From Cohaesibacter sp. ES.047 (GTDB lineage Bacteria; Pseudomonadota; Alphaproteobacteria; Rhizobiales; Cohaesibacteraceae), in the NCBI RefSeq assembly GCF_900215505.1, contig NZ_LT907844.1:1770501-1834500 (forward strand): DNA of 64,000 nt, written 5' to 3'. A program made the position numbers and the translations under genes. The notes beneath the pieces are model-generated. The model was given only the letters and a program-made list of their open reading frames with translations, searched no databases and had not been told where the DNA came from. Positions 7,051 to 36,203 of this stretch are shown one piece after another. Position 1 is the stretch's first letter. Every line of letters starts with the position of its first letter.

Positions 7051-7404
7051 CTATTGTTGGGCTTGGCCTTTTTCGGCGTCCATTTCGCCGAGCTCGCCCA
7101 GGATTAGGCGGCTAATCTCATTGAAATGCTTCATCTTGAGATCAGATAGGCCGGAAATGTTGAGGCGGAAATAAATATGTTGCCACAAGAGGTTAGCGTC
7201 TTGCTGTTTCGCAGCGGCTAAACTATGGATTGCGGTGTCTAGGCGGTGGTAGTCGAAAGCTCGCATTGGTATCCAAGCTGGCAAGCGGTTATTTAGGAAC
7301 AACAGCATTGCTGCGCCTAAAACTATCTTTGCCCAGTTTCTTTCCACTGTTGGAAAGGAAACTTTGCTGGATAACAGGCCTCGTAAATAAGTGGCGTCAT
7401 TCAT
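7051..7404 (-). CDS. hypothetical protein at prophage 1 left end
   Basis: A 117-residue protein (MNDATYLRGLLSSKVSFPTVERNW...) on the reverse strand between the left end and the repressor gene. GAGG lies upstream of the ATG at 7404. It has a mildly hydrophobic stretch (KIVLGAAMLLFLNNRL), then charged helical sequence, and an acidic C-terminus. I do not recognise a family. Its position, expressed in the same direction as the repressor and next to the phage end, is typical of lysogeny-expressed cargo genes, so a role in the lysogen (for example exclusion) is possible but unproven. Confidence 0.55.
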   Translation of the reverse strand: MNDATYLRGLLSSKVSFPTVERNWAKIVLGAAMLLFLNNRLPAWIPMRAFDYHRLDTAIHSLAAAKQQDANLLWQHIYFRLNISGLSDLKMKHFNEISRLILGELGEMDAEKGQAQQ

Positions 7405-15023: not shown

Positions 15024-15649
15024 GTGCAATTCCAGCAATCCACGTCGGGCTCAAGCAGTTGGGCATTGCCGAAGAAGACGCACGCGATCTCTATCAGCGA
15101 CAGACCGGAAAACGCTCTTTGAAGGTCATGACCTCAAAGCAGCATGAGGCGGTCTTGGGCGAGCTGCGTAGAATGGGATTTTCCAAGACCAACGGGAAGA
15201 AAAAGCTGGAAGGCAAATTTGCTCCCAAGCTTCAAGCGCTCTGGATTGCCGCTTGGAATTTGGGGATTGTCCGCGATCGCAAAGACAGCGCCTTGTTGGC
15301 ATTTGTAAAGCGGCAGACCGGGATCGATCACACGCGCTTTCTACAATATCCTGAAGACGCCACGAAGGCGATCGAAGCGCTCAAGAGCTGGATGCGGCGG
15401 GAGGCTGGTGTTGAATGGAACGTCGAACGTTGGATGCCCGACCATATGCAAGATGCTCGGTACCAAGTCGCTATTGCTCAGGCCAGCATTCTTGCAAATA
15501 GGACCGATGGCATCTCAACAGCAAAAGGCATCCTGATCATCAATTGCGCATCCCTTTTTGGTCATAGCGATCTTGATGCCTTCGAGGCGTCTGACTGGAT
15601 CGAACTGCAAAACCTTCTGGGCAAGCTGGTCCGTAGGGAGACACCATGA
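15020..15649 (+). CDS. gemA: GemA/gp16-family regulatory protein
   Basis: A 209-residue protein. The first 140 residues match the gp16/GemA family (IHVGLKQLGIAEEDARDLYQRQTGKRSLKVMTSKQHEAVLGELRRMGF, then LQALWIAAWNLGIV). In Mu, GemA alters host gene expression and DNA supercoiling. The last 60 residues go beyond the 137-residue prophage 2 homologue. ATG overlaps the previous stop and its own stop overlaps the Mor-like gene. Confidence 0.8.
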   Translation: MSAIPAIHVGLKQLGIAEEDARDLYQRQTGKRSLKVMTSKQHEAVLGELRRMGFSKTNGKKKLEGKFAPKLQALWIAAWNLGIVRDRKDSALLAFVKRQTGIDHTRFLQYPEDATKAIEALKSWMRREAGVEWNVERWMPDHMQDARYQVAIAQASILANRTDGISTAKGILIINCASLFGHSDLDAFEASDWIELQNLLGKLVRRETP

Positions 15650-16059
15650 GCAGCTCGCTTCCTATCGTATTGCAAGAGATTGCCGATATCACGGGTGACG
15701 CCATGGATGCGATCGAGCTCGCACAGAACTATGGTGGAAGCCGTGTTCAGATCCCCGCGTATGTTCAGCCTGAGGGACATTGGTTGACTGACCTGGTTGG
15801 CTTGAAAAAGGCCAAACAGATATGCGACTTCTATCGCGTGATAACGCCAGAGGGGCGTTCTATTGGCTACTACATGGATGTGCCGCTCGGCTTGAAGTCT
15901 CGGCATGAGATTATTCGCAAGCGCATTGACAGCTTGCTGGCAGAAGGCCGCTCGCACGATGTGATTGCTCGCGAGGTTGGCGTCTCTCGATTGACTGTGC
16001 TAAGAAGATCGAAGGAAAAACCACCCGACCGTGGTCAAATGGATTTGTTCAGTCATTGA
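15646..16059 (+). CDS. mor: Mor/C-family transcription activator
   Basis: A 137-residue protein with the Mor-family layout: helical dimerisation region, AIELAQNYGGSRVQIPAYV (the ..YGG..VYIP motif) and a C-terminal HTH (IIRKRIDSLLAEGRSHDVIAREVGVSRLTVLRR). In Mu, Mor activates middle and C activates late promoters; here only one such gene is seen, so it may serve the late promoters directly. It ends just before the terminator/late element at 16060. Confidence 0.8.
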   Translation: MSSSLPIVLQEIADITGDAMDAIELAQNYGGSRVQIPAYVQPEGHWLTDLVGLKKAKQICDFYRVITPEGRSIGYYMDVPLGLKSRHEIIRKRIDSLLAEGRSHDVIAREVGVSRLTVLRRSKEKPPDRGQMDLFSH

Positions 16060-16088
16060 GCTGGTAACATTTGTTACCGGCTTTTTTG
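16060..16088 (+). terminator. intrinsic terminator overlapping late element 1
   Basis: GCTGGTAAC (16060-16068), loop ATTT, GTTACCGGC (16073-16081) and T6 form a good intrinsic terminator one base after the mor stop codon. The same bases include a perfect dyad GGTAAC-N4-GTTACC and the word ATTTGTTACCGGCT (16069-16082), shared with three other intergenic sites of this prophage. It may both end the early operon and bind the late activator for the lysis cassette. Confidence 0.7.
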
Positions 16089-16133: not shown

Positions 16134-16733
16134 ATGCACAATCCTCCCTTCAATTCGACATCGATGCGCGAGCTTTCAAGCGTCAATCCGCTGTTGGCTG
16201 CAATCACCCTTCGCGCCGCACAGATTTGCGAGCAGCCCTTTCAGGTGACCAACGGTATTCGGTCACTTGAGGATCAAGTCAGAAACCTAGAGCGAGGCGC
16301 GTCCAAAACGCTGGCGTCCACTCATCTGATTGGCATTGCCGACGATCTACATGCGACGTCACCGGATGGGGCTGAGATCCTTTGGGAGCCCCTAAGTCTC
16401 TATCAGACTATCCAAATCTCCATGAAACAGGCGGCATCGGAATTTGGTGTGAAGCTGAAATGGGGTGGCGATTGGGGCTGGGACAGCGTTCATTTCCAAC
16501 TCTCTACAAGCAAATACGGTCCTTCACTTGGGCTGAGTGGACAGGCCGTTGTTAATTGCCAGCGGCTTCTCAACCTCGTGTCTCCTGAACCTTTGGAAGT
16601 GGATGGCCATTTTGGCCAGATCACAGACAAGGCCGTCAGGGGTTTTCAGGCAAGCGTGAAGCTGCCCGTCACCGGCATTGTCAATTATCCCACCCTGAAA
16701 AAATTGATCCCGGCTTTTGAAAGGAGCCTCTAA
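16134..16733 (+). CDS. endolysin: M15 peptidase with C-terminal peptidoglycan-binding domain
   Basis: A 199-residue protein. Residues 20-125 show the M15 (VanY/L-Ala-D-Glu endopeptidase) pattern: FQVTNGIRSLEDQVRNL, the zinc-ligand region STHLIGIADDL, and WGGDWGWDSVHFQL. Residues 138-199 form a PG_binding_1 repeat (VNCQRLL...VDGHFGQITDKAVRGFQ). It should cut peptide cross-links during lysis. ATG 16134 has AGAGG nine bases upstream; the upstream in-frame ATG lies in the terminator. No signal peptide, so it needs the holin next door. Confidence 0.82.
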   Translation: MHNPPFNSTSMRELSSVNPLLAAITLRAAQICEQPFQVTNGIRSLEDQVRNLERGASKTLASTHLIGIADDLHATSPDGAEILWEPLSLYQTIQISMKQAASEFGVKLKWGGDWGWDSVHFQLSTSKYGPSLGLSGQAVVNCQRLLNLVSPEPLEVDGHFGQITDKAVRGFQASVKLPVTGIVNYPTLKKLIPAFERSL

Positions 16734-23849: not shown

Positions 23850-23878
23850 GCCTGTAACATCTGTTACCGGCTTTTTTG
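23850..23878 (+). terminator. intrinsic terminator overlapping late element 2
   Basis: GCC-T-GTAAC (23850-23858), loop ATCT, GTTAC-C-GGC (23863-23871), then T6. The same segment holds ATCTGTTACCGGCT (23859-23872), identical but for one base to the element after mor. It closes the packaging/portal unit and precedes the protease/capsid unit, where Mu has its PI late promoter. Confidence 0.65.
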
Positions 23879-23903
23879 AGCTTTGGGCTGTCAGCATTCA
23901 GGC

Positions 23904-24914
23904 ATGAACCAGACAGCTCACATATTCCGCACGCATTGTGCCCTTCAGCTCGGTGCCGACGCACAAGTTCCCGAGTGGGTCGAAGTGATCCCGGCCGGGA
24001 CCATCACTGGCCGCGATGATCGTGTCTTTATCAATGATCGGCCTGAGCTGATTGTTGCCCAATTTGCAGCCGACGGCATCGACCTTATTTTTGATTACGA
24101 GCATTTGAGCGAGGTTGATCTTGAAGCCAAGAAACCTGTTCCGGCTGCTGGCTGGATCTCCGCTCTTGAAGAACGCAAGGGTGCCGTCTGGGCTCGGGTC
24201 GATTGGACGGCCAAAGCGCGTGAGATGATCGCGGCTCGTGAGTATCGATATTTTTCTCCGGCCTTGCTGCTCGACCAAGATGCCGTGCCCGGTGTTCAAG
24301 TTCATGTCGTTGGCCTCAGCTCTGCCGGACTGGTTCACAGTCCCTTCCTTCGTTCTGCTGCGCTTAACAGCAAACAACCCACCACTCCAAAACCCGAAAA
24401 CAGCGAGGTTGCCATGAAAGGTGACAAACGCGTCGCGCTTTGCCAAAAGCTCAAGCTTGCGGATGAAGCCTCCGACGACGCCGTGATCAGTGCCATTGCG
24501 GTGCTGCAAGCGGAAGCCGAGAAGGCTGCGCAGTTCGATCAATCGAACTTCGTTCCGAAGGCTGACTATGAGCAGGTCAAGTCTAAGCTCGATACTCTGC
24601 AAGCTGGTGAGGCGGACAAGCTCAAACTTGAAGCCGAAGCCGCAGTCGATGAAGCGATCAAGGATCAAAAGGTCGCTCCCGCATCCAAGGATTACCACCT
24701 TGAAGCATGCGCCACCCGCAAAGGGCTTGACCAGTTCAAAGCCTTGATGGGCACCACCGGCAAGCTTGCCATTACCCAGCAGACTGATCTCGACAAGAAG
24801 ACGCCCCAAGCGGGCAAGGTCGAAACTCTGTCTGTCAATCAGAAGCAGATCGCCAAACAGATGGGGCTTTCCGATAAAGCCTATCTCGATCGCCTCAATG
24901 ATAAGGAGGCTTGA
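23904..24914 (+). CDS. head maturation protease with internal scaffold (Mu I/Z-like)
   Basis: A 336-residue protein. The N-terminal half is the Mu I protease region (IPAGTITGRDDRVFINDRPELIVAQF, DLIFDYEHLSEVDLEAKKPVPAAGWISALE, YRYFSPALL); serines and histidines of the family lie here. The C-terminal half is a scaffold-like, charged helical region. ATG 23904 has no good ribosome site and lies only about 30 bases after the late element, so a very short leader or another start is possible. Followed in frame by a nested start at 24414. Confidence 0.82.
   Translation: MNQTAHIFRTHCALQLGADAQVPEWVEVIPAGTITGRDDRVFINDRPELIVAQFAADGIDLIFDYEHLSEVDLEAKKPVPAAGWISALEERKGAVWARVDWTAKAREMIAAREYRYFSPALLLDQDAVPGVQVHVVGLSSAGLVHSPFLRSAALNSKQPTTPKPENSEVAMKGDKRVALCQKLKLADEASDDAVISAIAVLQAEAEKAAQFDQSNFVPKADYEQVKSKLDTLQAGEADKLKLEAEAAVDEAIKDQKVAPASKDYHLEACATRKGLDQFKALMGTTGKLAITQQTDLDKKTPQAGKVETLSVNQKQIAKQMGLSDKAYLDRLNDKEA
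24414..24914 (+). CDS. internal-start scaffold protein (Mu Z-like), nested in protease gene
   Basis: An in-frame ATG at 24414 with GAGG at 24405-24408 would yield the last 166 residues of the protease gene (MKGDKRVALCQKLKLADEASDD...). In Mu the Z scaffold is made from an internal start of gene I in the same way. The segment is alpha-helical and acidic, as expected of a scaffold. Confidence 0.55.
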   Translation: MKGDKRVALCQKLKLADEASDDAVISAIAVLQAEAEKAAQFDQSNFVPKADYEQVKSKLDTLQAGEADKLKLEAEAAVDEAIKDQKVAPASKDYHLEACATRKGLDQFKALMGTTGKLAITQQTDLDKKTPQAGKVETLSVNQKQIAKQMGLSDKAYLDRLNDKEA

Positions 24915-28207: not shown

Positions 28208-28736
28208 TGCGCTGATTGATGAAATATCCGATCTGAAAGACTGGCGTGCTGAACAAGAACGCAAGTCCAACAACTACGTGCGCAAAGTCCGCATGAAGGA
28301 GCGCAAAGACGGCAAGGTCATCGTCGAAGACGGCTCGGGCTTTGTTAGCGGACCGGTAACCCAAGCCTCTATGACCTCAGGTGAGTGGACCATTGACGCC
28401 CCGGCTAATCCCGGTGCGCAAGGCTTTCTCATTTGCCCCGATGGTGAGACCGAGGGCGGCGCATTCTTTCCTTGCCTGCCAAACGACAATCATCCTCATG
28501 CCAGCACTGAACAAGGGACTTTGCGGCTCAAGGGTCCAGCCGGGGCCGAGATTGAAATTGCCGGTGGGGTGGCAACGCTGAAAGGCGTCAAGGTGGTCAT
28601 TGATCCCGAAACACATTTGGCCGGTAAAGGCGGACCAGCGGTCGCCCGCGTTGGCGATATGGTCGACGTAAAATTTGGATCTTCAAAGGGGCTTCACCCG
28701 ATCATTCAAGGCTCTTCAAAAGTCTTTGCCAACTGA
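28194..28736 (+). CDS. baseplate assembly protein V (spike)
   Basis: A 180-residue protein with the gpV/gp45 OB-fold-type start (LDALIDEISDLKDWRAEQERKSNNYVRKVRM) and the typical C-terminal beta region (GTLRLKGPAGAEIEIAGGVATLKG...VARVGDMVDV). It forms the central membrane-piercing spike. ATG 28194 with GGAG upstream is chosen; the frame is open further upstream. Confidence 0.82.
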   Translation: MSALDALIDEISDLKDWRAEQERKSNNYVRKVRMKERKDGKVIVEDGSGFVSGPVTQASMTSGEWTIDAPANPGAQGFLICPDGETEGGAFFPCLPNDNHPHASTEQGTLRLKGPAGAEIEIAGGVATLKGVKVVIDPETHLAGKGGPAVARVGDMVDVKFGSSKGLHPIIQGSSKVFAN

Positions 28737-28803
28737 TATCTGATACCGGCTTTAGCCAATCACGCTCGCGCATAGTTGAGGCGACTTCAAACGCAACTCA
28801 ACT
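28733..28803 (+). promoter_or_regulatory. late element 3 and leader hairpin
   Basis: CTGATATCTGATACCGGCT (28733-28751) overlaps the last codons of baseplate V and is identical to the element before the sheath gene; its core ATCTGATACCGGCT matches elements 1 and 2. Twenty bases further on is CATAGT (a -10-like hexamer). AGTTGAG (28774-28780) and CTCAACT (28797-28803) form a leader hairpin. Probable late promoter for the baseplate/fibre unit. Confidence 0.55.
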
Positions 28804-30274: not shown

Positions 30275-31094
30275 CGCTTCCAAGCATTTGCCGCTTTATG
30301 CATCCGATCATGAATTGCGGGTGTCATCTGTCAGCTTTTTGATGGATGACATCGAGGCGGCGATCATTGCCCTGTCGAAAGAAAAGAACCCGGCTGAATG
30401 CCGCGCCGAGATCCTGCCTTGGCTTGCCTATGAAGCAAGTGCCGATTTTTGGGATCCTGCATGGTTCGAAGACACACGTCGAACGGTTATCGCTGCTCAA
30501 TGGGAAATCCACCGTCACAAGGGCACGCCTTACGCATTGAACTATGCGCTCGATATGGTCGGCCTTGAAAGCAATCTGGTTGAGTGGTGGCAGATGGAGC
30601 CACCCGGCGTCCCCGGTACGTTTGAGGTTACCGCTTGGTTGGCCAAGCCGGTTTATGATCGCGAGATTGATCATATCGAAAGACTGACCTCGATTGCGCA
30701 TCAAGCCATAACGCGCACCAAGCCTCTGTCCCGGCATTATAGCTTGCGTTTGGCTTTGCGTTCGTGGCTTTCAATCGTTCCTCACTCGGCTTTGCAGGAT
30801 CTTCAAAAGGTCAAGATCCTGCCACCCATGGCGACGGACCTCAGTAGCACCATGAAGATGGTGATGGCGGGCTGCGCCTCGACCGGTGAATTGGTCCGGA
30901 TCAAGCCAAAGCAGACCACCGCGATCTATGACGCCATGTCACTGGCCTTTGGAGGCTCGACATCGGTTGGCGAAGTGATCCGTCTTTATCCTCCAACAGC
31001 GTCCGGCCTTGAAAGCCAAGCGTCCTATCACCTTGCTATCGGGGTCCGCCCGGCCAACCCAATTGTGACCATCTTGCCGGAGGGGCATGCATGA
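30267..31094 (+). CDS. tail protein I
   Basis: A 275-residue tail protein I family member (LPWLAYEASADFWDPAWFEDTRRTVIAAQWEIHRHKGTPYALNYAL). The C-terminal 90 residues extend past P2 gpI and are beta-rich; they may contact the fibre. It follows J as in P2. Confidence 0.85.
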   Translation: MYDASKHLPLYASDHELRVSSVSFLMDDIEAAIIALSKEKNPAECRAEILPWLAYEASADFWDPAWFEDTRRTVIAAQWEIHRHKGTPYALNYALDMVGLESNLVEWWQMEPPGVPGTFEVTAWLAKPVYDREIDHIERLTSIAHQAITRTKPLSRHYSLRLALRSWLSIVPHSALQDLQKVKILPPMATDLSSTMKMVMAGCASTGELVRIKPKQTTAIYDAMSLAFGGSTSVGEVIRLYPPTASGLESQASYHLAIGVRPANPIVTILPEGHA

Positions 31095-32188
31095 CGACCT
31101 ACTCAACGCGCCTGACCAATGCCGGGGCGATTGCCCTCAATGAGGCAATCACCGGCGACACCGCCATCGCCTTGGATGTGCTGGCTGTTGGCGATGCCAA
31201 CGGCGCGGACTATGTGCCAGACGGCAGCGAGGCCGCCCTGATCAACGAACAATACCGCCTACCACTGGCCTCGATCATTCCTCATCCAGTTAATGCGGAT
31301 TGGTTGGTTCTGGAAGCCATTTTGCCGCCCGATGTTGGTGGCTGGTGGATCCGTGAGGTCGGGATCTATGATGACAATGGCGACCTGTTTGCCATCGCCA
31401 ATTTCCCACCAACATACAAGGCTGTGGCAGTCGACGGCGCAACGTCAAGCCTCACCATTCAGATTGTTCTTCAGGTGTCTGATAGCAATGCGCTGACCTT
31501 GTCAGTTGATGCACAGGAGGGCTATGCCACGCAGAGTTTTGTGGAGGCGGGGCTTAGCGGCAAGGCCGATAACGACCATACCCATGATGATCGTTATTAC
31601 ACAGAAACTGAGATAGACACCAAGCTGATAGCCAAAGCCCCAGCCTCTCATTCTCATGATAACCTTTACTATACTGAGGCCGAAATTGACGCCAAATTGG
31701 CGGGAAAGGCCGCGACCAGTCATACTCACGATGGTCGCTATTACACGGAAACAGAGATGGACAGCAAACTGGCCGGTAAAGCCGCCGCCAGTCATACTCA
31801 TCCTGTCGGACAGATCAGCGGCATCAATGGTAATTTCGATCTCGCCAATGGCCTCTTTGGTGGCAAATCACCAAGTGAGTTGACCGGAATATTTGCTTGG
31901 GTGTCTTTCAATGGTGCCTCTGGTGCTGTGCTGGGAAGCAGCGGTGTCAGTTCTGTCACCAAGAATGGCACAGGTGACTTCACAGTTAACTTCTCGGCTG
32001 CAGCGGCCTCTACGGGCTACGCAGTAGTGGCTCTTGCGGGCAGAACAGGCACAGATGGAAACATCAATGCTGCTTTGTGGCCCGGTTCTTCGAAGAGCAT
32101 GTGGGGTGTTCGCCTTTCCATCCAAGTTTCGTCAAACGCGGTTCGTGAAAACACCGCGATTGTCGACGTTCTGATTATTGGCGGGTGA
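31091..32188 (+). CDS. tail fibre protein 1
   Basis: A 365-residue fibre. The N-terminal 140 residues are the baseplate-binding domain (LAVGDANGADYVPD, ILPPDVGGWWIREVGIYDDNGDLFAIANFPPTYKA). Residues about 155-245 contain three to four repeats of the type SHTHDGRYYTETEMDSKLAGKAA, a histidine-rich triple-helical shaft. The C-terminal 110 residues form a beta tip typical of prophage fibres. It determines host adsorption. Paired with its own chaperone at 32190. Confidence 0.88.
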   Translation: MTTYSTRLTNAGAIALNEAITGDTAIALDVLAVGDANGADYVPDGSEAALINEQYRLPLASIIPHPVNADWLVLEAILPPDVGGWWIREVGIYDDNGDLFAIANFPPTYKAVAVDGATSSLTIQIVLQVSDSNALTLSVDAQEGYATQSFVEAGLSGKADNDHTHDDRYYTETEIDTKLIAKAPASHSHDNLYYTEAEIDAKLAGKAATSHTHDGRYYTETEMDSKLAGKAAASHTHPVGQISGINGNFDLANGLFGGKSPSELTGIFAWVSFNGASGAVLGSSGVSSVTKNGTGDFTVNFSAAAASTGYAVVALAGRTGTDGNINAALWPGSSKSMWGVRLSIQVSSNAVRENTAIVDVLIIGG

Positions 32189-32189
32189 T

Positions 32190-32648
32190 ATGACAGAAGA
32201 ATGCATCGTCTATAAAGACAACAATGGCCTGGCTCTTGTTATGCCCTCTGGTGAAGTGGCCGACGCCCTTAAGGATATTCCTACAGGTGCTACCCACCGG
32301 ACTCTGGCCATTGATAACCTGCCGGAGCACCCTATTGATATTTGGGGTGAGGCATATTTGGCTACAGGCCTCATGCCTGCATTGGGCGAGCATGTGCCGC
32401 TCATCCCCCTTGCTCCTATCACTCGAAAACAGATGATTGATGTGCTGATCGACCATAATTTGGACGAGGCGGTCGAGCCAGCTCTTGAAGCAATTGAAGA
32501 TGTTACGGAGCGCAAGAAAGCCCTCAATGCCTGGCAAAACGCCACTCAGTATGAGCCAGACCATGCGCTGATATTGCAAATGAAGACCACCCTCAATCTC
32601 ACCGACGAAGAATTTCAGACCATGTGGCGTGAAGCCATGGTGCTTTAA
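32190..32648 (+). CDS. tail fibre assembly protein 1
   Basis: A 152-residue fibre-assembly chaperone. The second half (APITRKQMIDVLIDHNLDEAVEPALEAI...ERKKALNAWQNA, then DEEFQTMWREAMVL) is strongly repeated in the chaperone at 33926-34360. The first half differs, presumably matched to its own fibre. ATG 32190 overlaps the fibre stop. Confidence 0.75.
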   Translation: MTEECIVYKDNNGLALVMPSGEVADALKDIPTGATHRTLAIDNLPEHPIDIWGEAYLATGLMPALGEHVPLIPLAPITRKQMIDVLIDHNLDEAVEPALEAIEDVTERKKALNAWQNATQYEPDHALILQMKTTLNLTDEEFQTMWREAMVL

Positions 32649-32657
32649 CGGAGCTGA

Positions 32658-33923
32658 ATGATGACTGCCGCAACTTACTATACCCGCCTCACCAATATCG
32701 GCTCCAATGCCCTCAGCGCGGCCATTACCGGTGGCGCTTCGGTTTCTCTGACCCATCTTGCTGTGGGAGACGCCGATGGTTCTAGCTATGATCCAGACGG
32801 AACGGAAACCAATCTGGTGCACGAGACACATCGGCTCAATATCACGTCTATCACGCCAGACGTTCAGAACCCGGCTTGGCTGATTGTCGAGGCAATTCTC
32901 CCGCCTGACGTGGGTGGGTGGTGGATCCGCGAGGCAGGCCTGTTTGACGCCAATGGGGCAATGTTCGCCATCGCCAAATATCCGCCAACCTACAAGGCCA
33001 TCCTTACGGATGGCACCGCCTCGACGCTCACGATCCAGATCGTCCTGCAGGTCACCAATACCGATAGCATTCAGTTGGTGGTCAACCCTCTTGACGGCTA
33101 CGCCTCCCAAAACTGGGTTATATCCTCCTATCCATGGGCCAACGAAGAAGAAGTGGTAGACGCGGCGATTGAAAAGAAGCTGGTGGATCCAAAACGTTTG
33201 GCAGCCGCATTGTCACAACTCTCCTTTGCAAGGCCTGAGGATTTAACGTCCTTGTCTGAGGCAATTGATCTTGCGTTGGAAGGCAAAGCAGCACGCAATC
33301 ATAACCATGCCGGGGTTTATGCGCTGGCAGCCCATAACCACGACGGTGCCTATGCGTCGATCAATCACGCTCATGATCTTCTATATGCCGCCAAAAGCCA
33401 TGGTCACCAGATCAGCGAAATCAGCGGCATCAATGGCATTTTCGATTTGGCAAATGGTTTGATCGATGGCCGGTTGCCGAGCCAATTAGGCGGGGGACCT
33501 GCCGCTTCGATTACGCACGAGATGGCCAATGGAGTTGACGGAGGCTGGCTTTACGCTGGCTCTTGGCAAGTGAGGCCCTACAACACGGAAGATGATCCAT
33601 TTGGATTGATCTCACTGGCCAACAACAGCTTCACGCCAGCAGCCGACCTGTATATGAGTGGATGGGCTTCTATCAACGATACCGCTCAGACCTCCTCGCG
33701 GGTTTTTTGTGTAACAGATAATGCGGTTGTTGCCGTTGGATCAGGCGGGCATTCCAACCCGACCTATTATTGCACCTCGCACACCTTTTTCTCCGCGAAG
33801 CTTACGGCAGGAAAAACCTATCGCATCGAGATGCGTGGGGCGGAAACCTCTGTTGGCTTCGGGGTTTCCATGGTGTTGGGGCAAACTGAGCTTTATTCTC
33901 AAATCGATTTCTGGAGGCGATAA
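32658..33923 (+). CDS. tail fibre protein 2 (tandem paralogue)
   Basis: A 421-residue fibre with the same N-terminal module as fibre 1 (LAVGDADGSSYDPDGTET, ILPPDVGGWWIREAGLFDANGAMFAIAKYPPTYKA) but a different shaft (NHNHAGVYALAAHNHDGAYASINHAHD) and an unrelated, larger tip (about residues 280-421). ISGINGIFDLANG repeats a word from fibre 1 (ISGINGNFDLANG), marking the module boundary. Same orientation as fibre 1, so not an invertible G-type switch. Confidence 0.85.
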   Translation: MMTAATYYTRLTNIGSNALSAAITGGASVSLTHLAVGDADGSSYDPDGTETNLVHETHRLNITSITPDVQNPAWLIVEAILPPDVGGWWIREAGLFDANGAMFAIAKYPPTYKAILTDGTASTLTIQIVLQVTNTDSIQLVVNPLDGYASQNWVISSYPWANEEEVVDAAIEKKLVDPKRLAAALSQLSFARPEDLTSLSEAIDLALEGKAARNHNHAGVYALAAHNHDGAYASINHAHDLLYAAKSHGHQISEISGINGIFDLANGLIDGRLPSQLGGGPAASITHEMANGVDGGWLYAGSWQVRPYNTEDDPFGLISLANNSFTPAADLYMSGWASINDTAQTSSRVFCVTDNAVVAVGSGGHSNPTYYCTSHTFFSAKLTAGKTYRIEMRGAETSVGFGVSMVLGQTELYSQIDFWRR

Positions 33924-33925
33924 AA

Positions 33926-34360
33926 ATGGTTGTTCTGATCAACGACGACCGCGTGATCCAACATGTTTGGAAGCATAAGACGATTAAGGATTTGGTAGAA
34001 ATCCTAAACGGCACTGAAGGCTTTTCGAAAGAGAACCTACTCGAGATGGATGGCGTGCCAGGTCAGATCGTCAATGAAGATGGGTCTTTGCGTAACCCTG
34101 CACCGGGGCCGGTGCGGCTCGCTCCTATCACCCGCAAGCAGTTGATTGATGTGCTGATCAACCATGAATTGGATGAGACGGTCGAGCCTGCTCTTGAGGC
34201 CATCGCAGATGGCAAAGAGCGCAAGAAAGCGCTGAATGCTTGGCGGAACGCATCGATCTACAAGCCGGATCATGATCTTATCGGGCATATGAAGGCAGCT
34301 CTTGATCTTACCGAGGACCAATTCGCAGCCATGTGGCGAGAAGCCATGGTGCTTGAATAG
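33926..34360 (+). CDS. tail fibre assembly protein 2 (tandem paralogue)
   Basis: A 144-residue chaperone related over its C-terminal 80 residues to the protein at 32190-32648 (APITRKQLIDVLINHELDETVEPALEAI). The first 60 residues (INDDRVIQHVWKHKTIKDLVEILNG) differ. It sits directly after fibre 2. Confidence 0.75.
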   Translation: MVVLINDDRVIQHVWKHKTIKDLVEILNGTEGFSKENLLEMDGVPGQIVNEDGSLRNPAPGPVRLAPITRKQLIDVLINHELDETVEPALEAIADGKERKKALNAWRNASIYKPDHDLIGHMKAALDLTEDQFAAMWREAMVLE

Positions 34361-34383
34361 GGAGCAAAAACTCATCCCTTTAC

Positions 34384-34402
34384 CTGATATCTGATACCGG
34401 CT
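34384..34402 (+). promoter_or_regulatory. late element 4, upstream of sheath
   Basis: CTGATATCTGATACCGGCT is identical to element 3 over 19 bases and shares the ATNTGWTACCGGCT core with elements 1 and 2. It contains a direct repeat CTGATA at 7-base spacing. A candidate -10, TTAACT (34423-34428), lies 20 bases on, which would place the transcript start near 34435, inside the following inverted repeat. Confidence 0.55.
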
Positions 34403-34410
34403 CACGGTCT

Positions 34411-34452
34411 CGCTCCTTGCGGTTAACTGGATGTAGTTAACCGCAAGGAGCG
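34411..34452 (+). promoter_or_regulatory. 18-bp perfect hairpin covering the sheath ribosome site
   Basis: Arms 34411-34428 and 34435-34452 are perfectly complementary with a six-base loop. The right arm contains AAGGAG (34445-34450), the Shine-Dalgarno for the sheath ATG at 34458, so in an RNA that carries both arms the ribosome site is fully paired. A transcript starting inside the loop would lack the left arm and be free to translate. Confidence 0.75.
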
Positions 34453-34457
34453 AAAGC

Positions 34458-35681
34458 ATGACGACGAATTATGGTCATGGCGTCTATTCCTATGACAAGA
34501 CGTCAGCCCCGCCTCAAATCACAGTCGGTGAAAGCGGCGAAATCGCTATCACCGGCACGGCCCCCGATGCCGTTGCCGAAGACTGGCCTCTCGATATTCC
34601 TGTCGATATCAATGGCGATATCACCAAAGCTGCAAGCTTGGGTGCAACCGGCACTCTGCCTATCGCTCTGCAACAGATTTGGCGGCAGTATGGCAAGCAA
34701 TCGGGCCGTATTGCGGTTATCCGCGTTGAGAAAATCGAAGACACAGCACAACAGACAAGCGCGGTTCTGGGCAGTGAGATCGACAAGACTGGCGTCTATG
34801 CCATCCTCAAATGTCAGTCGTTGCTTGGCTTCGAGCCTGACCTCCTGATCGCTCCCGGTTTCGCCACGGTGCCAACCGAAGGGGACGTGACGCCAGTTGC
34901 TGGTGCATTGTCTGCGATCGCAGAAAAGATCCGGAGCTTTGTCTATCTGGATACGACCAACGGAATGCTCGCCGAAGCCCATCAAAGCCGCGCTTTGGTC
35001 GGCTATGACAACGCGATGCTGGTGCACAATTTCACGAAAGAGTGGGATAGCGCAGTTGATGCTCATGTCGCCGTTCCCGGATCTATCTTTGCGGCTGCGA
35101 TGCAGTCCAAATATGATCTTGAAAAAGGGTTCTGGTGGTCTGCGTCGAACAAGCCGGGCAACCTTGATGGGCTGTCCCAGCAGATCCAATATCGCCGGGG
35201 TGACAAAGGATCAGAGGCCAACCTGCTGAACGCCGATCAGATCTCCACGATCATTCGCGATAAGGGCGAATACAAGCTCTGGGGTTCTCATACGCTTGAT
35301 GACGCCCAGCTTCTTGGCGGCACCATTGTCGGTCGCCGTGTGTCCTACAAGGTGTATGACGCCCTTGACGATGGCCTGCACCCTTACATTGATCAGCCAA
35401 CGAGCCTGCAAGCGATTGAGGATATCTCCGCTTCGGCCCGCGAGTTCTTGCGCACGCTGGCCTCAAAGGGCGCTCTGATCGGATACGAATTTGAGCTGCC
35501 GATCGGCCTCAACACGATCTCCCAAATTCAGGCAGGTCTGTTCATCTATCGCTTGAAATGGGTGGAAGCTGGCCCGATGCGCGAAATTCAGATCTGGGGT
35601 GTTCGCACGCCCGATCTCTATGCGGAGTTCCTTGATCAGGCGTCCGCCCTTTCATACTTCCGCGAAACGGTCGCGGGCTAA
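34458..35681 (+). CDS. tail sheath protein (FI-like)
   Basis: A 407-residue contractile tail sheath subunit. Family features: HGVYSYDKTSAPPQITVGESGEIAITGTAPDA near the N-terminus, FEPDLLIAPGFA, the AAAMQ..DLEKGFWWSASNK segment, and the C-terminal FIYRLKWVEAGPMREIQIWGVRTPDLYAEFLDQA. Second to the capsid as the most abundant tail product. Translation start lies behind the 18-bp hairpin. Confidence 0.92.
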   Translation: MTTNYGHGVYSYDKTSAPPQITVGESGEIAITGTAPDAVAEDWPLDIPVDINGDITKAASLGATGTLPIALQQIWRQYGKQSGRIAVIRVEKIEDTAQQTSAVLGSEIDKTGVYAILKCQSLLGFEPDLLIAPGFATVPTEGDVTPVAGALSAIAEKIRSFVYLDTTNGMLAEAHQSRALVGYDNAMLVHNFTKEWDSAVDAHVAVPGSIFAAAMQSKYDLEKGFWWSASNKPGNLDGLSQQIQYRRGDKGSEANLLNADQISTIIRDKGEYKLWGSHTLDDAQLLGGTIVGRRVSYKVYDALDDGLHPYIDQPTSLQAIEDISASAREFLRTLASKGALIGYEFELPIGLNTISQIQAGLFIYRLKWVEAGPMREIQIWGVRTPDLYAEFLDQASALSYFRETVAG

Positions 35682-35693
35682 GGAGCTTCAATC

Positions 35694-36203
35694 ATGGCAA
35701 TGGAAAAGATTAGCGCGCTCGATGGCTTCACCCTTTGGATTGGTGACGCGGACTATGGTGGGACGGTGACCGGGATCACGTTGCCCGGTCTACCGCGCCG
35801 CATTGAGGGACGGCGCACTGGCGGCCGCCGTGGTGTCTTGGGCGTCAAGCTTGGCCTTGAAGAAGCCAAGGCAACAATCAAGACAAAGGGGGTCTCGCAA
35901 AGTCTGATTGATGCGGTCAGCTCTGGTAAAATTGACGGCACCCGCCTGTTTGCCCGAGGCAATCTTGACGATCAGCAAGGCGGCTACACATCGGTTGTCT
36001 ACGAGCTACAGGGCCGATGCACCAACCCGGACAAAATCTCGGAAGAATGGACCGATGACGATGTCGAGGGTGAACTTGAATTCTGGCTTGTCTATTGGCG
36101 CAAAGACGTTGCGGGGGAGCGCAAGCTCGAGGTCGATCTACTCAATGACACCATCTATCCGGACGAGGCAAACGACGCCCGTCGCGCCAACCTTGGCCGC
36201 TAA
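35694..36203 (+). CDS. tail tube protein (FII-like)
   Basis: A 169-residue inner tube protein (LDGFTLWIGDADYGGTVTGITLPGLPRRIEGRRTGG, RGVLGVKLGLEEAKATIKTKG) of the P2 FII family. AGGAG precedes the start; ATG 35700 in frame is an alternative. Follows the sheath gene as usual. Confidence 0.88.
   Translation: MAMEKISALDGFTLWIGDADYGGTVTGITLPGLPRRIEGRRTGGRRGVLGVKLGLEEAKATIKTKGVSQSLIDAVSSGKIDGTRLFARGNLDDQQGGYTSVVYELQGRCTNPDKISEEWTDDDVEGELEFWLVYWRKDVAGERKLEVDLLNDTIYPDEANDARRANLGR

Follow-up and report, generated by a model that had tools for sequence, protein, structure and literature searches.

A candidate C-dependent late promoter within a ribosome-site hairpin before the tail sheath gene of a Mu-like prophage

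The window analyzed here, a stretch of 64,000 nt from Cohaesibacter sp. ES.047 (contig NZ_LT907844.1, positions 1,770,501 to 1,834,500), carries a Mu-like prophage. Its genes follow the order GemA, homolog of the late transcription activator C, lysis gene, gp27, I protease (head protease) and gpT capsid protein, and then the tail genes, with baseplate, two fiber modules, sheath, tube and tape measure. The subject of this report is the short region directly before the tail sheath gene (34458-35681; phrog_23, E 1e-56; Phage_sheath_1, 1.2e-6, just under the Pfam cut-off), where a long hairpin contains the ribosome-binding site (RBS) of this gene and overlaps a candidate late promoter. All positions refer to the window, and all its features are on the + strand.

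Positions 34410-34428 and 34435-34453 form 19 Watson-Crick pairs without a mismatch, and G34429-U34434 is a possible extra pair. The left arm is TCGCTCCTTGCGGTTAACT (34410-34428), the loop is GGATGT (34429-34434) and the right arm is AGTTAACCGCAAGGAGCGA (34435-34453). A preceding sequence-only reading described a perfect 18-bp hairpin. The hairpin is real and perfect, but its stem is 19-20 pairs long. The same reading correctly placed the Shine-Dalgarno sequence (SD) of the sheath gene in the right arm: AAGGAG is found at 34445-34450, and the sheath ATG is at 34458. The minimum free energy of 34384-34500 (117 nt) is -50.6 kcal/mol, compared to -28.2 ± 3.3 kcal/mol for shuffled sequences (z-score -6.7, 0 of 200). 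Among 11 close inverted repeats in the window, this one heads the list, the others being shorter or more mismatched. The arm has no second copy in the window, even when 3 mismatches are allowed. A genome search with the arm found a single place, which was matched once per strand because the hairpin is self-complementary. Being single-copy, the hairpin is not a repeat element. It is not an intrinsic terminator either, as it lacks a T run (AAGCATGACG follows the stem) and is not listed in terminator scans. Rfam, at the gathering score, has no match in 15000-36000.

The left arm is preceded by late element E4 (34383-34400, center 34391/34392; CCTGATATCTGATACCGG), a degenerate C-type operator that matches GGTRACA-NN-TGTYRCCGG at 12 of 16 positions. 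The C homolog is encoded at 15646-16059, directly after GemA (phrog_836, E 1e-17; no Pfam match). The prophage has three further late elements: E1 before the lysis gene (16063-16080; GGTAACATTTGTTACCGG; 16/16), E2 before the head protease (23853-23870; 15/16), which is nearly identical to the E1 dyad, and the degenerate E3 before the baseplate genes (28732-28749; ACTGATATCTGATACCGG; 12/16). A late element at 34384-34402 had already been proposed; an identical 19-mer is found at 28733-28751 and a related form at 23854. C homologs were detected in 6/6 related phages searched (by sequence and profile), each with a dyad of the same type after the C stop codon. A T4-type late promoter octamer (TATAAATA) was not seen by eye in 34384-34460, where the C-type element is found instead.

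The -10-like hexamer TTAACT (34423-34428) is present where the sequence-only reading had put it. Judged by eye, it is weak, and its operator spacing is as in other late promoters. A sigma-70 scan returned no promoter on the + strand in 33400-36200. This is not decisive because an activator-dependent promoter need not show up in such a scan. The start of transcription can be predicted from the operator. In all six phages with this promoter before the I protease gene, the distance between dyad center and AUG is nearly constant, at 43, 44, 45, 44, 44 and 45 nt. This set comprises the window (23853-23906) and phages G388, G397, G398, G399 and G400, and all six proteins match PF10123. The corresponding promoter was not found in phage G219, the prophage of which is split over two contigs. 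The tight spacing suggests an AUG at +1 and a head-protease mRNA that is probably leaderless; in the window, the gene (23904-24914; PF10123, E 1.2e-48) has its ATG 43 nt from the E2 center. A similar value holds for phage Mu: counting by eye on the published lys oligonucleotide, which extends 20 nt beyond the S1-mapped start, gives a distance of 44-46 nt between the C-site center and the start.

At +43 to +45 from the E4 center, transcription of the sheath gene is predicted to start at 34433-34436, in the loop or at the first base of the right arm. With a start in the loop, the late mRNA would be devoid of the left arm. The sequence-only reading had the mRNA starting near 34435 without this arm, and the operator spacing leads to the same prediction. 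The left arm (34410-34428) would thus correspond to the promoter spacer and the -10 region and is expected in read-through RNA only, as judged from sequence, fold and promoter-leader pairing. By sequence and fold, the right arm (34435-34453) would be the mRNA leader. The late mRNA might instead start upstream of 34410 and contain both arms, with the lock being opened by a protein or by upstream translation. Control of this type exists for Mu mom and its regulator Com (PMC6483171); also, the E4 operator and the -10 are weak and the start is uncertain. Against this stand the spacing at six I protease genes and in Mu, which places the start in the loop, and the lack of a sigma-70-like promoter in the scanned region. 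We consider an upstream start rather improbable.

We think it likely that 34383-34457 is a C-dependent late promoter for the sheath, tube and tape-measure genes, and that its DNA (spacer and -10) also encodes the left arm of a hairpin that masks the SD in the RNA. RNA started at this promoter, presumably upon binding of C to E4, would begin in the loop, lack the left arm and be open to ribosomes. Read-through RNA from the fiber genes would carry both arms, fold, and allow hardly any translation from the sheath start codon. The upstream fiber transcript probably starts at 28733, from the same kind of late element. The contrast at the sheath gene would therefore be between "started here" and "read through" rather than between early and late. 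An early/late contrast, as drawn in the sequence-only reading, probably does not hold here because the upstream E3 promoter is itself late-type; it fits the lysis promoter better, where the C gene is directly upstream. The gain at the sheath gene would be promoter-specific expression rather than early/late control. Of the predicted locks, that of the sheath gene is the strongest.

Masking was quantified as the predicted cost of opening -16 to +3 around the start codon, in read-through and in late RNA. For the sheath gene of the window, this cost is 26.1 kcal/mol in read-through RNA and 4.2 kcal/mol in late RNA. The view that read-through RNA is silent and late RNA translatable is thus reinforced, at the level of prediction. 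The values for the sheath gene of G219 are similar (23.8 and 4.1 kcal/mol). Averaged across 21 sites, opening costs 13.7 kcal/mol in read-through RNA, 5.5 in late RNA and 8.9 in read-through RNA with a shuffled promoter. The cost in read-through RNA exceeds that in late RNA at 20 of the 21 sites and that with a shuffled promoter at 19 (p 2e-5). The 14 lysis-side sites (those where the gene starts with ATG and the leader measures 15-60 nt) give p 1e-4 when taken alone. The mean unpaired probability of the RBS also differs between read-through and late RNA (p 0.0004).

Seven phages with a close sheath protein (at least 50% identity, window included) were compared. A C-type operator directly precedes the sheath gene in three of them: the window, G219 (78% identity) and G397 (Roseibium, 52%). 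All three also have a comparable hairpin. No such hairpin was found, by fold and by eye, in the four phages for which the operator scan showed nothing at this position (L003/G398, L025/G399, L026/G400 and L086/G388). The sequence-only reading had staked its case on the left arm being kept where the sheath gene is the same; on this, the seven phages are split, three having the hairpin. G219 keeps the layout with other letters, including the operator, a -10 (TCTAAT), the start in the loop and the SD in the right arm. Counted against the window, 13 pairs of its stem are the same and 5 differ in both bases; one further pair shows a one-sided wobble change, one pair is inserted, none is broken, and the G219 stem has two bulges. 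The search for compensatory changes in related leaders, which the sequence-only reading had suggested, thus gave five such pairs in G219, on an alignment set by hand. Promoter-leader pairing at E4 is far beyond that of shuffled sequences in the window (z-score -6.5) and in G219 (z-score -4.6). In G397, the RBS folds with promoter DNA in a less regular structure (pairing p 0.047).

Palindromic repeats can arise through template switching. In the window, the two arms match without a flaw, as might be expected of a recent palindromic insertion or template-switch artifact without function. Such an origin is hardly credible, given that a relative keeps the stem with five compensatory pairs, that the hairpin is single-copy, and that similar structures are found at other C promoters.

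These other promoters were surveyed in the regions behind C genes. Seven C proteins were aligned, and C homologs were found within the order (37 of 397 genomes) and within the class (18 of 385). The regions come from the matches listed with a locus, at most 30 per search (order, class). This gave 54 C loci, two of which were dropped (C frame broken). Of the remaining 52, 23 were tested, one is an exact duplicate, and 28 lack an exact ACA-NN-TGT. The pairing of promoter DNA (-32 to -1) with the leader was compared to that of dinucleotide shuffles of this promoter DNA. The z-score is negative in 22 of the 23 regions (Stouffer -8.3). When reduced to 20 sequence clusters, window included and with no choice of a start codon, 17 are negative (mean z-score -1.75, Stouffer -7.8). 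Because the loci are partly related (e.g. the arms of L116 and L117 are nearly the same), the combined score should not be taken as an exact probability. Nine clusters have p ≤ 0.05 individually. A wall-lytic gene follows in 16 of the 20 clusters, these nine included. The lysis promoters of the window and of G219 are among the 20 clusters. In a swap control, at most one of 19 foreign promoters outpairs the leader's own promoter for 12 of the 20 leaders. Automatically assigned start codons, which the clustered test does not use, are doubtful for L122, L130, L145, L149 and L154. The "operator" of L154 lies within the coding sequence of C and is probably spurious; this locus remains in the statistics.

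As a further control, 99 gene starts from four phages, the targets themselves included, were given a mock transcription start 28 nt upstream. The mean z-score is -0.08. Only four starts are below -3, with the sheath gene being strongest (z-score -6.8) and the G388 lysis start second. The other two are not C promoters (a miscalled internal ATG in the G400 sheath gene and another gene of G388).

The proteins encoded behind the operators have a wall-hydrolase or peptidoglycan-binding domain in 16 of 20 cases searched (L095 and L147 are outside this set), and so does the window's own. The families are muramidase, amidase, GH108, M15 peptidase, CHAP and Hydrolase_2. A lytic role is unsupported in the other four, with the L122 gene matching a baseplate/fiber family and L145, L149 and L152 matching nothing. 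Since the wall hydrolases are mostly unrelated, the design was not simply inherited with one gene. We infer that the same construction exists at many of the C-dependent promoters for lysis genes in Mu-like prophages of Alphaproteobacteria. There, the hairpin would stop lysis genes from being made from the C transcript. Examples of paired arms are CTTTGCAAAC/GTTTGCAAAG, CGTTCGAACA/TGTTCGAACG and GATCCCCA/TGGGGATC.

Hairpins were also seen by eye in L134, L135, L142 and L143, which are not counted as they lack an exact operator. Outside these statistics, named gammaproteobacterial and other phages were inspected by eye. Leader hairpins directly after a C-like gene, only a few bases away from the next start codon, were seen in Pasteurella phage Pmp9 (a 13-bp perfect stem, L238:1320-1402) and Vibrio phage ZX4290 (a 14-pair stem, L244:1209-1287), and no obvious hairpin in some others (e.g. 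L240, L241, L242 and L245).

The position of the fold was analyzed as a profile of enclosing pairs over 22 sites. From this and the accessibility analysis, L147 was left out as a near-copy of L146. It has its maximum at +45 to +51 relative to the operator center, with the start predicted at +44. At +49, the mean is 15 enclosing pairs, versus 9 in shuffled sequences (z-score about 5). The constant position of the fold with respect to the operator argues against a signal for termination, pausing or RNase III processing of the fiber mRNA, as do the missing T run, the negative terminator scans, and the fact that the stem holds the SD of the next gene. A stable stem of this length between two operons would suit such a signal, and a 20-bp stem could serve as an RNase III substrate. 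As the sole function, this is very unlikely, but RNA processing may occur in addition to masking.

The profile is open to another explanation, in which the palindrome over the -10 and +1 acts as DNA. It might aid open complex formation, e.g. by extruding, or bind a second regulator, and the masking of the RBS would be a by-product. In its favor, the average center of the repeat over the 22 sites is slightly downstream of the predicted start, isomerization is the step at which Mu C acts at Plys, PI and PP (PMC4461284), and stem ends do not favor G-T over A-C mismatches. However, the arm sequences differ between phage groups, which is ill-suited to one protein site, and the RBS is masked beyond chance. 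In the window and in G219, the arm covers exactly the SD, and bulges and wobble pairs occur (G219). We regard this explanation as unlikely, though less so than the other alternatives, and prefer masking at the RNA level.

The same pairing is seen at Mu PI. Its start was deduced from published oligonucleotides, which had been positioned according to S1 mapping. The deduced start is at the end of CTGCTCA, which pairs with TGAGCAG beside the SD of gene I (z-score -2.3, p 0.04). The opening cost is 14.8 kcal/mol in read-through RNA versus 2.2 in late RNA, and 0 of 60 shuffles are as high. Mu PP lies inside gene 43, and the Mu sheath gene L overlaps the preceding gene.

Several points weigh against the reading as a C-dependent promoter inside a masking hairpin. 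E3 and E4 match the operator consensus at only 12 of 16 positions, a value also reached by five further sites in the 30-kb stretch, so that both elements rest on the shared 19-mer, spacing and position. The -10 hexamer agrees with TATAAT at three of six positions. The window/G219 alignment of the left arm was set by hand around the stem, because MAFFT misaligned the left arms, and this favors pairing. Sequences had been viewed by eye before the test was set up, and several loci share ancestry. In the clustered test, 11 of the 20 clusters have p > 0.05 (L098, L118, L122, L127, L130, L145, L146, L149, L152, L154 and L162). L118 is the window's own E1, with p 0.18, and 0.17 in a separate run. The exceptions in opening cost are G219 E3 and Mu Plys. 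At Plys, GCCATCA can pair with TGATGGC, which includes the start codon, but there is no excess over shuffles in two runs. Promoter-leader pairing at G219 E3 is also not beyond that of shuffles. At window E3 and at G397 E4, the RBS is masked to an extent that shuffles also reach. By mean unpaired probability, the lysis set is only marginally below shuffled promoters (p 0.049), and 18 of 200 shuffles are as low as window E4 (by the same count, 2 for G219 E4, 54 for G397 E4 and 22 for Mu PI). Mismatches of the G-T and A-C types number 0 and 3 inside stems and 8 and 9 at stem ends; with no excess of G-T, there is no signature of selection on the sense RNA. Finally, a terminator-like sequence (GACCCGGAGC..GGGTTTTTT) was seen by eye before the G219 sheath promoter (L092, about 7290-7345, - strand), and none was seen there in the window. 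With such a sequence, there would be less need for a lock in G219.

Three other sites of the prophage should be mentioned. (i) The lysis gene behind E1 (16134-16733) codes for an M15 peptidase with a PG_binding_1 domain (phrog_465, endolysin, on a longer frame). E1 doubles as a terminator-like hairpin with a T run (16058-16083); E2 is not listed as a terminator. The C operator and the terminator of the C transcript thus seem to be one sequence at E1, and read-through into the lysis gene would be opposed twice. By eye, a dyad with a T run follows C in four of six related phages (G219, G388, G398 and G399, not G397 and G400). (ii) E3 has a hairpin core, AGTTGAG (28774-28780) and CTCAACT (28797-28803), around a predicted start at 28783, with a promoter-leader pairing z-score of -4.1. 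(iii) Two modules, each of a fiber gene and a small gene, are arranged in tandem at 31091-34360. A 127-nt segment in the front part of the fiber genes and the 240-nt small-gene ends are 75-76% identical, as if the fiber module had been duplicated.

A generalization may be considered, namely that each Mu-like C promoter, including Mu PI, either lies inside an RBS-masking hairpin or is placed exactly at the AUG (leaderless), so that genes for lysis, head and tail would not be translated from read-through RNA. This is plausible, but we think it somewhat more apt to fail than to hold. If true, Mu-like phages as a class would have put the logic of T4 lysozyme to use a second time, by independent evolution and on a far wider scale. 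Promoter DNA would serve twice, as the site for RNA polymerase and as an antisense arm directed against the RBS of its own gene. This would explain how lysis is avoided in temperate transposable phages that have the lysis gene behind the activator gene in one direction of transcription. It would also yield a prediction for the long-mapped Mu PI and a search rule (operator plus 44 nt is in the loop), which would locate late promoters and starts in unstudied Mu-like prophages.

Among known systems, the closest is phage T4, where genes e, soc, 49 and I-TevI have hairpins that silence read-through RNA, with the SD or AUG in the helix (PMC3014915). In gene e, the 5' strand is in the late-promoter region; late-started RNA lacks this strand and is translated, with a 100-fold effect (PMC3014915). 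The sequence-only reading, which invoked a logic known for some T4 early/late mRNAs, is well matched by this gene. As in T4 e, the SD of the sheath gene is held in a stable predicted helix in the long transcript, with the difference in opening cost given above. The start predicted from operator spacing is in the loop; late RNA that begins there would lack the 5' strand. T4, however, uses the late sigma factor gp55 and the octamer TATAAATA, while the window has a C-type activator with a dyad operator. Also unlike in T4, the logic is inferred here, and it would apply to a structural gene and to many Mu-like lysis genes. The sheath element is thus to be described as working like the T4 e hairpin, not as one of that type.

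The prophage resembles Mu in having the C homolog beside the lysis gene, a non-consensus -10, and candidate late promoters before the lysis and head-protease genes. An operator about 44 nt upstream of the start, as predicted here, would be a further parallel. It differs in its candidate sheath promoter: the C-dependent promoters named in PMC4461284 are Plys, PI, PP and Pmom, none of them for the sheath gene L, and the word hairpin is absent from that text. In Mu mom, an RNA structure blocks translation of a late gene and is relieved by Com (PMC6483171), i.e. by an RNA-binding protein and not by the position of the RNA start. In Bacillus subtilis, premature expression of sigG is lowered up to 4-fold by a conserved hairpin that covers the RBS (PMC5942855). 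Unlike the hairpin in the window, it is in the leader itself and not split by the transcription start. The sequence-only reading knew of no such case for a Mu-like sheath gene. Indeed, no published case of a Mu-like late promoter inside an SD hairpin was found in a search that had the original Mu promoter papers outside its scope. The arrangement is not special to the sheath gene, as it recurs in many C-lysis regions and at Mu PI. The C-dependent setting and its spread seem to be new, while the logic is that known from T4 gene e.
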